Of a stretch of DNA of 64,000 bases, positions 7,700 to 63,186 are shown one piece after another. The notes under the pieces are model-generated. The model saw nothing but the letters and a program-made list of their open reading frames with translations, had not been told where the DNA came from and searched no databases. The stretch is from Flavobacterium sp. AED (GTDB lineage Bacteria > Bacteroidota > Bacteroidia > Flavobacteriales > Flavobacteriaceae). The stretch's first letter is position 1. Every line of letters starts with the position of its first letter. A program made the position numbers and the translations under genes. The DNA lies in NCBI RefSeq assembly GCF_000812945.1, contig NZ_JSYM01000001.1, forward strand, positions 1,302,001 through 1,366,000, written 5' to 3'.

Positions 7700-7814
7700 G
7701 GGTTTACCCTGAATTTATTTCAGGGCGTGACCACAAGGGTCGGGCTTTCCGCTACAATCTTTTCCTTTTTAAAGAAAAAGGAAAAGGATTTTTGCTGCAA
7801 TCCCTCACGCAATC
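7700..7814 (-). repeat. Dispersed structured repeat, copy A
   Basis: Read on the minus strand: GGGATTGCAGC, then a long A/T hairpin (CTTTTCC...GGAAAAG), then GATTGTAGCGGAAAGCCCG, then the tail hairpin CCTGAAATAAATTCAGG. It shares boxes and order with four other copies in this window. It lies upstream of the lepA promoter, between divergent lepA and dusB, so it is not part of the lepA leader. Confidence 0.75.
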
Positions 7815-7943
7815 GCCAAACAGCGACAATTAATCTGCAAATATAAGCTAAATTCAACAGTTTCAAAGTCCCGAATTCGCAAACTAATTGGTTTAATACT
7901 AAGTCTTTCTTCTTTCTTCTTTTATCCTTTCATCTAAAAAACG

Positions 7944-10617: not shown

Positions 10618-10765
10618 TAAGTTTTATCCCGAAGTTTCGGGACAAATTTTAAAAGTAACCTAGAAATTGTTGCGTTTTTAGGAGCTATTTCCTGCTGTTC
10701 ACTATATCTTTCCTGCCGAACACCGGCAAGAAAGGATGCCGTTTCTATCAGGGCTAGGAGATTTA
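10618..10765 (-). repeat. Dispersed structured repeat, copy B
   Basis: Read on the minus strand: CTAGCCCTGAT, ACGGCATCC, hairpin (CTTGCCGG / CGGCAGG), AGATATAGTGAACAGCAGG, TAGCTCCT, then a CCCGAAACTTCGGG stem in the tail. It shares the boxes of copies A, C, D and E and is closest to D. It lies between divergent rbfA and the AddA-like gene, upstream of the rbfA promoter. Confidence 0.75.
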
Positions 10766-10823: not shown

Positions 10824-13800
10824 ATGTTAATGCAAAGACCTTCATTCTCCATATACGACGCATCGGCAGGTTCTGGAAAAACCTATGCGCTTGTCAAAGA
10901 ATACCTAAAAATTATCCTTGTTGCAAAAAAGAATGACGCCTATCGAAACATTCTCGCGATTACGTTTACCAACAAAGCGGTTCACGAAATGAAAAGCCGA
11001 ATCGTAGGCAGTTTGTCCGAATTTGCCAAAGACGAACCAAGTTCAAAAGCACAGGATTTAATGCAGGATTTGGCCGTAGATACCGAACTTTCTATCATTG
11101 AAATAAAAACCAAATCACAGCAAATCATCAAGCACATTATTCATAATTATGCTGCTTTTGATATTTCCACCATTGATAAATTCACACATAAAGTGATTCG
11201 TGCTTTTGCACACGATTTGAATTTACCTATGACTTTTGAAGTCACTTTGGATACTGAGAATTTATTGATTGAAGCTGTCGATGCCATCATCGCCCAAGCC
11301 GGAGAAGATGAAACATTAACCAAGCTACTCATCGATTTCACGATGGAAAAAACCGATGATGACAAATCTTGGGATATTTCACGAGAGATTCTCGATACCG
11401 GTCGTTTAGTTCTCAATGAAAACAACAGAAACGAAATCACTCATTTTCAAGATAAATCCATTGCTGAGTTTGTTGAAATAAAAAACAAACTAGCCGAAGC
11501 CTGTAAAAACTTAGAAAAGCAAACTATTATTTTTGCGGAAGAAGTATTGTCATTAATTGACAAAAATGGAATTGACATCAAATCCTTTTCTAGAGGTACT
11601 TTTCCGAATCATATTAATAGTATTCAGCAAGGAAAATTCAATCCCAAGAATAAAACTTTTCATGAGTTTGATGATATTGCTATCAATAAAACAGCTAAAG
11701 ATCGTGCGATTATCGAAAATCTAATTCCTGAATTTTTGCAAATCCTGACTAAAGTTTATACAGCTTTCGAAAAGATAAATTTCTACAAAGCGTTCTTGAA
11801 AAACATTACACCTTTGTCATTATTAAATACGGTCAGCAATGAATTAACCAAAATCCAGAAAGAACAAAATGTGCTTTCTATTTCCGAATTTAATGCGATT
11901 ATCCATCGTGAGATTCAAAATCAACCCGCACCTTTTATATATGAACGATTGGGCGAGCGCTACCGTCATTTTTTTATCGATGAATTTCAGGATACTTCCG
12001 AAATGCAATGGCAGAACCTGATTCCGCTTATTGATAATGCGCTTTCGGGTCAAGATGATTTTGGTGTAAAAGGAACTTTGATGATTGTAGGTGACCCAAA
12101 ACAATCTATTTACCGCTGGCGTGGTGGAAAAGCGGAACAGTTTATTGAATTGAGTAAAGACCAAAATCCGTTCAATAATCCAGATAAAAAATTAGAACAT
12201 TTAGATAAAAATTACCGTTCTTACTCACAGATAATCGAATTCAACAATGATTTTTTTAAATTGTTATCGAATGAATTCGAACATTTGGATTATAAAGATT
12301 TGTATGAAAATCACAGTCATCAAAAAACTAATGATAAAACTGGGGGCTACGTAAATATTTCTTTCATTCCAAAAGTAGAAACTTCGGAAGAAGATGAAGA
12401 AGTTTTAGACAAAACTGATTTGTATGTTTTAGCAACTTTAAACACGATTCAAAAAACCTTGAAACAAGGCTTTCAATACAAAGATATTGTGATTCTGACC
12501 CGAAAACGAGATCAGGGAATTGCGATTGCTAATTATTTGACGGAACAAGGAATTCCACTTTTGTCTTCGGAAACTTTGATGATTCAAAATGCCACTGAAG
12601 TTCGATTGATTATTCATTTATTAAAATACTTGAAAAATAGTTCTGACTTGGAATCCAAAGCAAACTTTCTTCAATATTTAGCACAAAACAGTCAGGATAA
12701 ATTACCGATTCATGATTTTATCGCTCAGGGAATGGCGTTATTTCAGGAAACTGATTTCGAAAATTGGTTGATGAGTTTTGATGTTTCGCTTTCGTTTCAA
12801 AGCATTAGAAAAAAATCATTGTATGAGGCAGTGGAAACTATAATAAGTAAATTCCTCCCCCCAGCCCCCTCCGAAGGAAGGGGTGACGGAATAGTGAGCT
12901 GTGTGGATAAAAATCGTCTTATTGAATCAAATAAATTAGGATACATGACTGGCGGAAATTATTCTCATCTTTCAATCGATAAGGCTAAAGCGATGAGGAA
13001 AAATCCAACTAATGCTGAAAAAATACTTTGGTCTGAACTCAAATCACAATCTTTAGGAAGTAAATTTAGACAACAACATTTGATAGATGATTTTATTGTT
13101 GATTTTGTTTGTTTGTCAAAAAAATTAGTAGTCGAAGTTGATGGAGATTATCATTTTACTGAAGAACAAATTCAGTTAGACAAAAACAGAACTGAGATTC
13201 TAAGTAAATTAGGTTATAAAGTCATTCGATTTACCAATGAGCAAGTAATAAAGTGTATTTCAGATGTATTAAATAAAATAAAAGAAGAATTAATTCAACA
13301 AGAAGAAATTCAAAACTCCAATTTATCAGTTTCGGCTCCCTCCCCTTCGGGGAGGGTCGGGGAGGGGAATGCTTACGTTCAATATTTCCTAGACATTGTT
13401 CTCGAAAGAGACATTCGGAATCAAGCAGGTATTTCGGACTTCTTAAATTTCTGGGATAAAAATGCAGAGAAATTTAGTATTCCGTCTCCCGAAGGAAATA
13501 ATGCAGTCCGAATTATGACTATTCATAAATCGAAAGGATTGGAATTTCCGGTCGTTATTTTTCCTTTTGCCGAAGAAGATTATAATCGAAAACCAAAAGA
13601 TAAATTATGGCTTAATGCTGAGGAACAAGATTTCGGTCTACCAAAAGTTTTAATTGACAATAGTAGCGCGGTAGAAGGATTTGGAGAGGAAGCATCATTC
13701 GTTTACAATCAAAAGAAACAGGAAGAATTATTGGATAATATCAATGTTTTGTACGTGGCTTTAACCCGTGCTGAAGAGCAATTGTATGTAATTTCAAATA

Positions 13801-14477
13801 TGAATTTGTCCAACAAAGGAGAAGTTCCAAAAAATAATATGTGTGCCTTTTTCATTAATTATTTGGGAAGCAAAGGGGAGTTCGATGAAGGTAAATTAGA
13901 ATATGAATTTGGAAATAAAACGAAATTATCTGTAGGGCAGCGACACATTGATACTTCAAAAACGATTCCTTTAGTTTCAGAAATTTTGAATCCAAAGAAT
14001 ATAAAAATAGCACAACGCGAAGCTTTAATGTGGGGGACACTCCAACAAGAAGCTATCGAATATGGGAATGTTATTCACGAAATTCTATCTTTTGTCAAAA
14101 CTAAAAACGATGTTGATTTGGCAATTACAAAATCCATTGAAAACGGATTGATAACTTTTAGTCAAAAAGAGACGGTTTTTAATACGATTCAAGAAATTGT
14201 TAATCATAGTGAATTAGAGATTTGTTTTGCTGAAGGGAATGAAGTTTTAAATGAACAAACTATTATTCAAAAAGAAGGAAAAACAGTAAAACCGGACCGA
14301 ATGGTTTTGACAAAAAACAAAGAAGTATTGTTGTTGGATTATAAAACTGGAACACATAATGTTAAATACCAACAGCAATTGGAGAATTATCAGGATGCTA
14401 TTGAGAAAATGGGATACAAAGTAGTTAAAAAGGCATTGGTATACATAGGGAAAGAAATCGATGTAGTAAATTTGTAA
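10824..14477 (+). CDS. UvrD/RecB-type helicase-nuclease (AddA-like) with inserted DUF559 domain
   Basis: A superfamily 1A helicase with a C-terminal RecB-like nuclease, used in double-strand break processing. Visible motifs are Walker A ASAGSGKT (Lys19), Ia ITFTNKAVHEMK, II FIDEFQDT (386-390), III VGDPKQSIYRWRGG, IV DKNYRS, V MTIHKSKGLEFP and VI ALTRAEEQ (Arg982). The nuclease residues are Asp1158 (KPDR) and Asp1172-Tyr-Lys1174 (DYKTG). All are intact. Residues ~678-848 are foreign: a DUF559 endonuclease cassette inserted in frame between motifs IV and V, which makes the protein ~170 residues longer than expected. The AddB-like partner starts at 17347. Met3 at 10830 is an alternative start. 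Confidence 0.92.
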   Translation: MLMQRPSFSIYDASAGSGKTYALVKEYLKIILVAKKNDAYRNILAITFTNKAVHEMKSRIVGSLSEFAKDEPSSKAQDLMQDLAVDTELSIIEIKTKSQQIIKHIIHNYAAFDISTIDKFTHKVIRAFAHDLNLPMTFEVTLDTENLLIEAVDAIIAQAGEDETLTKLLIDFTMEKTDDDKSWDISREILDTGRLVLNENNRNEITHFQDKSIAEFVEIKNKLAEACKNLEKQTIIFAEEVLSLIDKNGIDIKSFSRGTFPNHINSIQQGKFNPKNKTFHEFDDIAINKTAKDRAIIENLIPEFLQILTKVYTAFEKINFYKAFLKNITPLSLLNTVSNELTKIQKEQNVLSISEFNAIIHREIQNQPAPFIYERLGERYRHFFIDEFQDTSEMQWQNLIPLIDNALSGQDDFGVKGTLMIVGDPKQSIYRWRGGKAEQFIELSKDQNPFNNPDKKLEHLDKNYRSYSQIIEFNNDFFKLLSNEFEHLDYKDLYENHSHQKTNDKTGGYVNISFIPKVETSEEDEEVLDKTDLYVLATLNTIQKTLKQGFQYKDIVILTRKRDQGIAIANYLTEQGIPLLSSETLMIQNATEVRLIIHLLKYLKNSSDLESKANFLQYLAQNSQDKLPIHDFIAQGMALFQETDFENWLMSFDVSLSFQSIRKKSLYEAVETIISKFLPPAPSEGRGDGIVSCVDKNRLIESNKLGYMTGGNYSHLSIDKAKAMRKNPTNAEKILWSELKSQSLGSKFRQQHLIDDFIVDFVCLSKKLVVEVDGDYHFTEEQIQLDKNRTEILSKLGYKVIRFTNEQVIKCISDVLNKIKEELIQQEEIQNSNLSVSAPSPSGRVGEGNAYVQYFLDIVLERDIRNQAGISDFLNFWDKNAEKFSIPSPEGNNAVRIMTIHKSKGLEFPVVIFPFAEEDYNRKPKDKLWLNAEEQDFGLPKVLIDNSSAVEGFGEEASFVYNQKKQEELLDNINVLYVALTRAEEQLYVISNMNLSNKGEVPKNNMCAFFINYLGSKGEFDEGKLEYEFGNKTKLSVGQRHIDTSKTIPLVSEILNPKNIKIAQREALMWGTLQQEAIEYGNVIHEILSFVKTKNDVDLAITKSIENGLITFSQKETVFNTIQEIVNHSELEICFAEGNEVLNEQTIIQKEGKTVKPDRMVLTKNKEVLLLDYKTGTHNVKYQQQLENYQDAIEKMGYKVVKKALVYIGKEIDVVNL
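12855..13367 (+). mobile_element. In-frame DUF559 (Vsr-like) endonuclease cassette with terminal inverted repeats
   Basis: A ~513-bp segment of exactly 171 codons inside the helicase gene. The left end (12855 to ~12888) is a C-rich stretch then CCGAAGG and a G-run. The right end (~13335-13367) is CCCTCCCC-TTC-GGGGAGGG and a further G-run. The right end resembles the reverse complement of the left. The ends are read as Pro/Ser/Gly linkers (LPPAPSEGRG, APSPSGRVGEG). The middle matches DUF559: AEKILWSELKSQSLG, KFRQQHLIDDFIVDFVC and EVDGDYH (Asp760, Glu771, Asp773, His777). An internal in-frame ATG at 12945 could start a free-standing endonuclease. No intein splicing residues are seen at the junctions. 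Confidence 0.8.
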
Positions 14478-17346: not shown

Positions 17347-20112
17347 ATGACAAATACTTCTTTTTTAGATAAAATAGCCACAGTTTTAATTGAAAAATAT
17401 TCAAATAATCTATCCAATACGATTGTAGTTTTGCCAAACAAAAGGGCAAAAATATTTTTGATTGAAGCGCTGAAAAATCAGGTGACCTCAAATATACTTT
17501 CTCCTGAAATTATAAGTATTGAAGATTTTATTCAAGACATAGCAGGCATTCGTACTATTGATCCGATTGAGCTATTATTCGAATTCTATGAAGTCTATCT
17601 GTCTGTTACTGATAAAGCAAACCAACAATCATTCGAATTGTTTGCAAATTGGGCGAAAACACTACTACAGGATTTTAATGAGATAGATCGCTATTTATTG
17701 GAACCATCCCACGTTCTTTCGTATCTAAAAGATATCGAAGACATCAAAAAATGGGGAATTGAAGTTGAAAATAAGACTGCATTATTAGAGAAATATATTG
17801 ATTTTTGGAAATTACTGCCTAATTACTATCAATCACTTTATAGTCATTTATTGAATAAAGGAATCGGTTATCAAGGTTTGATTTATCGTGAAGCGGTAAA
17901 TAACCTAAACCATTTTTCGAATTCAGTGCAAAATAAGCAATTCCTGTTTGCAGGTTTTAATGCGCTGAATGCCGCGGAGGAAAAAATAATCCAACACCTT
18001 ATTGCTTCTGATCAAGCCAAAATATATTGGGATGTCGATCAAACCTTCCTTAATGACCCATATCATGATGCTGGACTGTTTGTGCGCCGTTTCAAAGAAA
18101 GTTGGAAACATTATAAATCGCATCCTTTTGAATGGATTGTAAATGATTTTTCGCAGACTAAAAACATCAAGGTTATTGGAACGCCGAAGACAATCGGTCA
18201 AGCCAAAATAGCCGGAAGTATTATTGAAAATGTCGTCAATGAAAATCCCGACGGCAAGCTGGATAAAGTGGCTGTAGTTCTAGGCGAGGAAAATCTTTTA
18301 GTTCCACTTTTATATTCGTTACCGTCAAGCGTTGGTGCTTTGAATATTACGATGGGTTATTCGAGTAAGAATAATCCTGCCCAGATTTTGATTGCAAAAT
18401 TATTTAAAATGCATACGAATGCTTTGTCCAGAAATGCCAAAAGCTATGTGTTGTATTACAAAGATGTCTTGGATATTTTGACGCATCCTTTGGTGGAACC
18501 GTATGCGAAAACCAATGCGCTAGTCAAAATTATCAATCAAAACAATTACACATTTATTACCCATCATAAATTGATGGAATTGAATACTGATCCAACTGAG
18601 TTGTTTCTATTGTTATTCCAAAAATGGGAGCATGGTTCGATTCCGGTATTAGAGACAATTTCTAAATTATTGCAGACTATAAAGAACAATTTAAGTAATG
18701 ATAACGAAGAAGAGAAAATTACCAAAGCTTTTGTTTTTGCTATTTTCAAAGTGATTAATAAACTAATTAATTACTATTCGAAGCATGAACATATTGATAA
18801 AATAGAAACGCTTTATGCTATTTACAAACAAGTAATTGATTTGGCAGAAGTTTCCTTTGAAGGAGAACCTTTGAATGGTTTGCAGATTATGGGAGTTTTA
18901 GAAAGTCGTGTTTTGGATTTTGAGACTGTAATTGTTACTTCGATGAATGAAGGGAAATTTCCGGCAGGGAAATCGCAAAATTCTTTTATTCCGTATGATG
19001 TGAAACGCGAATTGGGATTGCCGACATTCAAAGAAAAAGATGCTATTTATACCTATCATTTCTATCATTTATTACAACGTGCCAAAAATATTTACTTGCT
19101 TTATAATACCGAAAGTGAAGGTTTAGATGCGGGTGAAAAAAGTAGATTTATCACCCAACTGGAAGTTGAAAAACAAAAAAATCATACGCTTACTCATGAA
19201 ATTTATAATGCTGTTTTACCTGAAACAGCCTATCAGCCAATGGTAATTCCAAAATCGGAAAGTGTTATGGTGCGATTGAAAGAAATTGCAGAGAAAGGTT
19301 TCTCTCCGTCCGCATTGACGAGTTATATCCGAAATCCAATTCAGTTTTATTTCCAGAAGATTTTACGCATCAGTGAAGTCGAAGAAGTCGAGGAAAATAT
19401 AGCATTAAATACTTTGGGAACTATTATTCATGAAACCTTGAAAGTTTTATATGAGCCGTTTATTGGAAAATTCATTTCGGAAAGTAATATTTTAAATTGT
19501 TTCAAACAAATTGATGCTGAGGTTCTCCAGCAATTCAAATTGGTTTATAAAGAAGGTGAAATTAAAAAAGGAAGAAATTTATTGGCTTTTGAAGTGGCGA
19601 AGCGTAATGTTTCAAATTTCCTGAAAGTGGAATTGGAAAGTATTAAGAATGGTGATGCAATCAAAATCATCGCTTTGGAACAAACATTCGGACGTACTTT
19701 AAATCATCCTAATTTGCCTTTTCCGGTATTGATAAAAGGAAATGTAGATAGAATTGAAGAGCGTAACGGAATCATTAGAATTATCGATTACAAAACGGGA
19801 AAAGTAGAAAAAGCAAGCGTCACTTTGAAATCATGGAAAGGATTAACCGAAGATATTAAAAGCGACAAAATCATTCAGGTCCTGGCATATGCTTATATGT
19901 ATGAGCATGAAGCTAAAGGTAAGCCAATTGAAGCAGGAATTATTTCTTTTAAAAACTTGAAGGCAGGTTTTCTTCCGTTTAATTTTAAAGAAGACAAAGA
20001 AATAAATTCAATTATAGATGAAGAAATTTTGAGTAATTACCTCGAACAGATTGTTATTTTGTTGAGTGAAATTTTAGATCAGAATATTTCTTTTGAAGAG
20101 AAAATAATTTAG
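17347..20112 (+). CDS. PD-(D/E)XK nuclease protein, AddB-like partner
   Basis: A 921-residue protein with an inactive-helicase-like N-terminus (VVLPNKRAKIFL) and a RecB-family nuclease at the C-terminus. The nuclease has Asp801 in DRIEE and Asp814-Tyr-Lys816 in IDYKTG. Size and layout fit AddB/RexB-type subunits. With the AddA-like protein at 10824 it would form a break-resection complex that makes recombinogenic 3' ends. In this window the pair is split by kbl and the OmpA gene. The 3' end overlaps the convergent hydrolase gene by 4 bp. Confidence 0.85.
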   Translation: MTNTSFLDKIATVLIEKYSNNLSNTIVVLPNKRAKIFLIEALKNQVTSNILSPEIISIEDFIQDIAGIRTIDPIELLFEFYEVYLSVTDKANQQSFELFANWAKTLLQDFNEIDRYLLEPSHVLSYLKDIEDIKKWGIEVENKTALLEKYIDFWKLLPNYYQSLYSHLLNKGIGYQGLIYREAVNNLNHFSNSVQNKQFLFAGFNALNAAEEKIIQHLIASDQAKIYWDVDQTFLNDPYHDAGLFVRRFKESWKHYKSHPFEWIVNDFSQTKNIKVIGTPKTIGQAKIAGSIIENVVNENPDGKLDKVAVVLGEENLLVPLLYSLPSSVGALNITMGYSSKNNPAQILIAKLFKMHTNALSRNAKSYVLYYKDVLDILTHPLVEPYAKTNALVKIINQNNYTFITHHKLMELNTDPTELFLLLFQKWEHGSIPVLETISKLLQTIKNNLSNDNEEEKITKAFVFAIFKVINKLINYYSKHEHIDKIETLYAIYKQVIDLAEVSFEGEPLNGLQIMGVLESRVLDFETVIVTSMNEGKFPAGKSQNSFIPYDVKRELGLPTFKEKDAIYTYHFYHLLQRAKNIYLLYNTESEGLDAGEKSRFITQLEVEKQKNHTLTHEIYNAVLPETAYQPMVIPKSESVMVRLKEIAEKGFSPSALTSYIRNPIQFYFQKILRISEVEEVEENIALNTLGTIIHETLKVLYEPFIGKFISESNILNCFKQIDAEVLQQFKLVYKEGEIKKGRNLLAFEVAKRNVSNFLKVELESIKNGDAIKIIALEQTFGRTLNHPNLPFPVLIKGNVDRIEERNGIIRIIDYKTGKVEKASVTLKSWKGLTEDIKSDKIIQVLAYAYMYEHEAKGKPIEAGIISFKNLKAGFLPFNFKEDKEINSIIDEEILSNYLEQIVILLSEILDQNISFEEKII

Positions 20113-41386: not shown

Positions 41387-41460
41387 TTTAAAAATTGATT
41401 TTTTCAAGCTATAAAAATAGCCTATTTAAGTTGATGTTTTTCGTTTTTAACACTTGCTTT

Positions 41461-41564
41461 TTAGCCCCGATAATAGAGGAAATCCTTTTATTTTTTTCTT
41501 TTAAAAAATAAAAGATTGTAACGGATAGCGGGATTAGCTCCTGAAATAAATTCAGAATAAATCC
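41461..41564 (+). repeat. Dispersed structured repeat, copy E
   Basis: AGCCCCGAT, GGAAATCC, A/T-only hairpin (CTTTTATTTTTT / AAAAAATAAAAG), AGATTGTAACGGATAGC, then TAGCTCCTGAAATAAATTCA. Box order and the tail match copies A, B and D. It lies between the divergent S9 peptidase and FAD oxidoreductase genes. Confidence 0.75.
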
Positions 41565-63030: not shown

Positions 63031-63131
63031 AGGATGTATTCTGAATTTATTTTAGAAGCTATTTCCTGCTGTCCGCTATATCTATTGTGGCGAACCCCGC
63101 CACAATAGGATGCCGCTTCCATCAGGGCTAG
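63031..63131 (-). repeat. Dispersed structured repeat, copy D
   Basis: Read on the minus strand: CTAGCCCTGAT, AGCGGCATCC, hairpin (ATTGTGGCG / CGCCACAAT), AGATATAGCGGACAGCAGG, TAGCTTCTAAAATAAATTCA. It is closest to copies B and E. It lies between two rightward genes, antisense to both. Confidence 0.75.
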
Positions 63132-63186
63132 ACCTCAGTGGAATCCGAATACCAAGATTTACAACTCATTTCTCATATCAATTTGC

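Follow-up and report, generated by a model that had tools for sequence, protein, structure and literature searches.

How does a nuclease come to lie within the reading frame of a helicase gene, and is it a mobile element or a part of the enzyme? The question is raised by a stretch of 64,000 nucleotides of Flavobacterium sp. AED (contig NZ_JSYM01000001.1, positions 1,302,001 to 1,366,000, forward strand; hereafter the window), in which a gene for an AddA-like helicase is interrupted by a segment encoding a DUF559 nuclease, here called the cassette. Such cassettes are found in frame in more than a dozen unrelated host families, and we consider it probable that they are selfish elements that spread in a homing-like, nuclease-triggered manner and are retained, unspliced, as a domain of the host protein. 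The locus contains the following features:

10824 to 14477, + strand: host open reading frame (ORF), 1217 aa with the cassette included, encoding an AddA/RecB-like UvrD helicase with a C-terminal PD-(D/E)XK nuclease; open throughout (Pfam, NCBIfam)
12855 to 13367, + strand: in-frame cassette of 171 codons, flanked by host codons for SKF and NAY (border comparison with relatives)
12851 to 12891, + strand: left GC-rich palindromic end, coding FLPPAPSEGRGDG, one arm of the terminal inverted repeat (pairing test)
13330 to 13370, + strand: right GC-rich palindromic end, coding SAPSPSGRVGEGN, the other arm (pairing test; the genome has similar copies)
12978 to 13292, + strand: DUF559 nuclease domain with a Vsr/EDxHD-type PD-(D/E)XK fold (Pfam, fold comparison)
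12945 to 12947, + strand: in-frame ATG preceding the nuclease domain; cassettes at other insertion sites do not conserve it (sequence)

A sequence-only reading of this DNA had placed an in-frame insert at 12855 to 13367, and both the ORF and the relatives bear this out: the 513-nt insert comprises residues 678-848, begins with L, ends with EG, and lies between host ..SKF and NAYVQYF... UvrD-helicase and UvrD_C pass the Pfam cut-off in the host ORF, with DUF559 nested in UvrD_C; the PDDEXK_1 match is weak (19.7 bits, cut-off 22), and RecB-like NCBIfam models match with scores under their cut-offs. The DUF559 core named in that reading corresponds to PF04480 at residues 719-823 (107.8 bits, cut-off 20.6; E 3.3e-31). 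Its GC-rich inverted-repeat ends were likewise recovered, as arms of 41 nt that are 71% complementary; when the two ends were shuffled 2000 times, no shuffle attained their pairing score, whereas 11 of 2000 same-geometry draws along the ORF did, some of which may have hit the true ends. In a stricter ungapped test the cassette scores 10 against a threshold of 12, and its ends are therefore eroded. As had been read, the coding frame is free of stops across both ends; the left end has one stop in one other forward frame. Pfam detects no transposase domain in the cassette. An AlphaFold model of the helicase fragment (mean predicted local distance difference test score 59.6) was used for outline only.

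An ancestral domain, as the earlier reading pointed out, should occupy this site in orthologs of distant genera and be absent from other genes. This is not the pattern observed. Of the 121 genomes in the genus sample, 118 have a helicase match, and only 8 of these carry the insert; the remaining 110 matches include contig fragments that stop short of the site, and all DUF559 matches of the sample are accounted for. Thirty loci were examined at the AddA site. A close relative (G010, left flank 94.8% identical) has an 18-nt linker there, another (G070, 97.4%) a 42-nt palindrome-like remnant, a third (G031) 30 nt, and a fourth (G056) a 93-nt palindrome pair; the 18-nt linker of insert-free relatives may be ancestral or a scar. 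On a host tree of 42 rows (the 30 best-scoring loci and 12 named ones), presence of the DUF559 insert requires 10 changes, and well-supported branches force 7 of these. Such patchiness is compatible with repeated gain, or with an older acquisition and many subsequent losses. The class of short inserts in this tree is crude, being defined as at least 30 nt, and takes in two 39-nt linkers that are not palindromic-looking.

Copies in unrelated genes, the other expectation for a mobile cassette, were abundant. The search for DUF559 in the genus sample returned 74 matches in 48 genomes, 43 inside host genes and 31 stand-alone. The hosts of the 43 are the AddA-like helicase (8), LeuRS at site 1 (12) and site 2 (1), MetH at site 1 (11) and site 2 (3), RecG (5) and a type ISP restriction protein (3); four of them (G104, G101 twice, G046) run off the contig or locus edge upstream. 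LeuRS, MetH and RecG hosts exceed NCBIfam equivalog cut-offs, and one LeuRS (G016) holds two cassettes. A genome-wide scan gave 47 named loci (LeuRS 25, AddA-like 12, stand-alone 9, CCA-adding enzyme 1), spanning Flavobacterium, Maribacter, Lutibacter, Gelidibacter, Salegentibacter, Mesonia, Zunongwangia, Paludibacter and others. Across the phylum, DUF559 occurs in at least 166 of 392 genomes. Among the phylum matches listed, 49 large frames were examined with Pfam and NCBIfam, and the hosts include HsdR, HsdM, Eco57I-type and type ISP methylases, UvrC, methylmalonyl-CoA mutase, another AddA-like helicase site, a third LeuRS site and others; in at least 10 of the 49 (G390, G402, G454, G377 near hisF, G282, G264, G284 C2, G421, G347, G167 C12) the domain is at a gene end, in read-through or unplaced, and one host (G161) has no Pfam name.

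Furthermore, a protein search restricted to the nuclease yielded 910 proteins of about 670-2130 aa, of which the best 120 were examined, and 78 of about 240-770 aa. Among the matches listed, sequences and domain scans revealed internal cassettes in PurL, IleRS, PrmC, HemD, SpoIID, RecG and an epimerase, and terminal DUF559 domains beside guanylate kinase, an aconitase-family protein, RlmL and the amidotransferase part of PurL. The helicase gene had been called essential-looking; LeuRS, IleRS and PurL are better cases of essential hosts. An artefact of assembly or gene calling, to which frames with homopolymer runs are open and thus lend a little support, is practically negligible as an explanation, since the same structures recur in independent genomes, named type strains and single-contig genomes such as G036.

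If the cassettes are translated as part of their hosts, their lengths should respect the frame. Measured between host anchors independent of frame, all 29 full inserts are multiples of three (AddA 8/8, LeuRS 11/11, MetH 10/10), with lengths of 369-606 nt. Three carriers (G105, G112, G025) have one LeuRS match each, and no spare copy was seen. Together, the in-frame inserts and the single LeuRS genes argue that the ribosome reads through and that the host enzyme works with the cassette, which would then stay in the mature protein as an extra domain. Placement in conserved genes does recall inteins, introns and phage T4 gene 60, where ribosome bypass is associated with a homing nuclease, and the cassette might thus be removed from RNA or protein, or bypassed, to leave a host protein without it. 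We judge this very unlikely: neither RNA removal nor bypass would need inserts to be in frame, Pfam finds no intein family among the matches of the host ORF at E 0.001 (in agreement with the sequence-only reading), and Rfam finds no group I or group II intron in the window at gathering score. The internal in-frame ATG of that reading is present at 12945 and does not hold as a general trait of cassettes, because an ATG that precedes the conserved TxAE motif by 13-32 codons occurs in 15 of 16 AddA and 23 of 37 LeuRS site-1 cassettes and in only 2 of 19 at MetH site 1. Production of a separate nuclease from an internal start was on this ground rejected as a general explanation.

What is being carried is a conserved enzyme. 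The fold of the cassette matches the homing endonuclease I-Bth0305I (PDB 3r3p) and Vsr (PDB 1cw0), its catalytic domain is related to that of I-Bth0305I in the EDxHD group, and the DUF559 catalytic residues are conserved among cassettes. The nuclease core is under purifying selection (median ratio of nonsynonymous to synonymous substitution rates, dN/dS, 0.14) and the ends are weakly constrained; the LeuRS core value (0.154) derives from 10 of 17 cassettes and the AddA value from 16 of 17, the remainder being lost to the sequence pattern, and MetH was left out because the pattern kept only 2 of its 10. A known defence system was considered and rejected, since PADLOC assigns the cassette only a homing endonuclease model and its GajB matches fall on the UvrD part of the host. 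PHROGs matches are weak, the best (E 3.4e-07) being to an HNH-annotated family.

In a tree of 120 DUF559 domains, which has few columns and 48 of 116 forks open, site labels require 9 changes against a minimum of 8 and a shuffled mean of 66.4, and none of 200 shuffles was as low. AddA (20 rows) and RecG (5) each form one clade. The domains thus cluster by insertion site, as homing endonucleases do, which typically keep to their insertion site. MetH site 2 clusters with one MetH site-1 copy, a grouping that is likely to reflect a jump between sites. The persistence of the AddA cassettes at one site across species, together with selection on the core, favours a further explanation, namely that a once mobile cassette has been domesticated as an accessory domain useful to the host, for instance in repair or defence, and is now inherited vertically. 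We hold this to be rather improbable, as host functions are unrelated (LeuRS, MetH, PurL, HemD, RecG), presence is patchy at each site (8 of 118 genomes for the AddA-like gene, 12 of 119 for LeuRS site 1, 11 of 111 for MetH site 1), and relatives carry short linkers or palindrome scars at the insertion site.

Moreover, several genomes contain apparent traces of movement itself, and the earlier claim of mobility gains from them. In G504, two stand-alone 540-nt copies, 99.6% identical and 3.3 kb apart, have different flanks; in G196, a pair of copies of about 490 nt, each in a different context, shares 85.5% identity (search at an identity of at least 85% in 27 genome groups, of which 2 had one locus each). 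One PurL (P0016) contains two cassettes at two sites, 84% identical over 169 aa with the ends included, and a third occurrence of the same ends without nuclease; one IleRS (P0006) contains two cassettes that are 60% identical. The ungapped test detects inverted repeats around 61 of the 126 cassettes that lie in frames of 300 aa or more and around 29 of the 40 stand-alone genes; among 166 control positions taken from these loci, it detects them at 1. End sequences vary between site lineages.

These ends allow for another reading, in which the palindromes are the mobile unit and DUF559 has been captured between two of them as a passenger; the machinery that moves them could be, for example, a transposase of the REP/RAYT type. 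The genome of the window has copies resembling the right end of the cassette, scattered and partly arranged as inverted pairs, and similar palindromes without DUF559 lie at many places; REP/RAYT systems and REPINs likewise have dispersed inverted pairs of GC-rich palindromes. The genome also has two matches to Y1_Tnp, the family of RAYT, and relatives have palindrome-only inserts at the same AddA and LeuRS sites. Against this, inverted repeats belonging to several different sequence families enclose 29 of the 40 stand-alone DUF559 genes, and the nuclease is under purifying selection that a passenger role would not need. DUF559 as a passenger of palindromes moved by something else seems an unlikely account. 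As a known system, RAYT is a tyrosine transposase, unlike the PD-(D/E)XK nuclease of the cassette, and REP/REPIN elements are not usually inserted in frame.

The reading we favour, a selfish cassette with homing-like spread, can be put as a sequence of steps. The nuclease would cut cassette-free alleles or palindrome-bearing sites, and repair of the cut would copy the cassette in. Its GC-rich ends, in which stop codons are scarce and whose translation gives flexible Pro/Ser/Gly linkers, would make in-frame insertion possible. With the insertion in a surface loop, the host enzyme would remain functional, and a splicing module would be unneeded. Selection would then retain only in-frame copies in tolerant loops, and loss of a cassette would leave a short in-frame palindrome scar.

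Several observations weigh against this account. The loci of the 29 inserts measured had been ranked by protein search, a procedure biased towards intact genes; the MetH site-2 cassette of G112 is frameshifted on its left side, and the AddA-like gene of the same genome has an 85-nt palindrome-only insert out of frame. Near-identical copies were found in only 2 of the 25 genomes with two or more loci compared, and 65 of the 126 large-frame cassettes, that of the window included, fail the inverted-repeat test. Alignment with orthologs, as the sequence-only reading had proposed, did define the SKF/NAY borders; an exact target duplication at the AddA site was not found among the relatives compared, because those free of the insert carry the 18-nt linker. 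Distribution at this site would also be explained by a single ancient gain and numerous losses, given the partial agreement between DUF559 and host relationships, and purifying selection would equally fit a useful domain. Finally, homing and retention are deduced from sequence comparison, and cleavage, homing and the protein product are all predicted.

Among known systems, the nearest phenomenon is that of Rickettsia palindromic elements (RPEs) and the nearest enzymes are the EDxHD homing endonucleases. As described in passages of a review (PMC2229807), RPEs resemble the cassette: they are selfish palindromic DNA that ends in inverted repeats, occur in intergenic DNA as well as in frame within conserved genes, and are tolerated as an extra peptide; an RPE-bearing gmk is, according to the same text, translated and active. 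The cassette, too, is a palindromic element found in frame in protein genes and between genes. It differs from RPEs in size (369-606 nt against 105-146 bp) and in its conserved nuclease, these passages mentioning no nuclease or other mobility gene. For the EDxHD group with I-Bth0305I (PMC3943268), the difference is that known intragenic homing endonuclease genes lie in splicing introns or inteins or are free-standing, whereas the cassette has no splicing module, and no extra DNA-binding domain was identified in it. Vsr-like DUF559 proteins such as Caulobacter VsrA (PMC12907096) are free-standing and linked to repair at methylated sites, unlike cassettes inside genes. Full-text searches of literature outside subscription journals and bioRxiv gave no report of unspliced in-frame nuclease cassettes in core genes, and no title or listed abstract opening among the DUF559 papers retrieved was on in-frame cassettes. 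The cassette is likely to be a new kind of selfish element without need of splicing. For the broader proposal of a new class invading essential genes unspliced, we see the balance as even; here a Vsr/EDxHD nuclease with protein-coding palindromic ends would become a permanent domain of LeuRS, IleRS, MetH, PurL, RecG, AddA and others, and home from allele to allele and palindrome to palindrome as the autonomous counterpart of Rickettsia-type palindromes.

How palindromic selfish DNA enters protein genes in frame has been a question since the Rickettsia elements, and because the cassette has its own conserved nuclease and occurs in cultured bacteria, it makes the question directly testable. If the account is true, a mobile element can persist in essential genes unspliced, as a tolerated domain. 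There is also a consequence for annotation, as LeuRS, MetH and other core enzymes of these genomes contain a nuclease domain that goes unannounced, and databases list some of them under the name of DUF559 proteins.

Related insertions were seen in several hosts. The LeuRS loop of relatives (L224, L227, L229, L232, L239, L240) contains other short in-frame repeats of the AGTCCTTAGTCC-type and AAAGTCGAAAGTC-type, and this loop therefore appears to be a general landing place. HemD P0191 has, besides its DUF559 cassette, several repeats of a palindrome-coded Pro/Ser/Gly motif. An HsdR protein (L307) also possesses an in-frame GIY-YIG domain (ORF residues 251-316), and a CobJ-like frame (L390) has one at its N-terminus; the strategy may extend to other nucleases, in GIY-YIG versions. 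In G112, the frame breaks in the MetH site-2 cassette (at a C run) and the AddA-like gene (L154, L063) could be slippage or sequencing error.

Palindromes elsewhere in the genome of the window take several forms. A P-type ATPase gene (L006 1258-1549; C2:180413-180703) has two in-frame palindromes in inverted orientation, with no DUF559 and seemingly native ATPase sequence between them. The second DUF559 gene of the genome (L002, C1:133462-133776) stands alone, has a different palindrome family, and is bordered on either side by a copy of the uvrA 3' end (68 nt, 94%), an arrangement suggestive of target duplication. Intergenic palindromes (L007/L010, L008/L013, L012/L018) form outward-facing pairs that bracket intergenic space near a stop or start codon.

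Downstream of the helicase gene lies one further feature:

17347 to 20112, + strand: AddB-like neighbour, PD-(D/E)XK (Pfam, NCBIfam)

The helicase and this neighbour, in which Pfam finds no cassette, are consistent with an AddAB pair. Rfam identifies four Flavo-1 RNAs in the window (7734-7821, 10684-10759, 41459-41539, 63058-63133), one of which sits just upstream of the helicase gene on the opposite strand.
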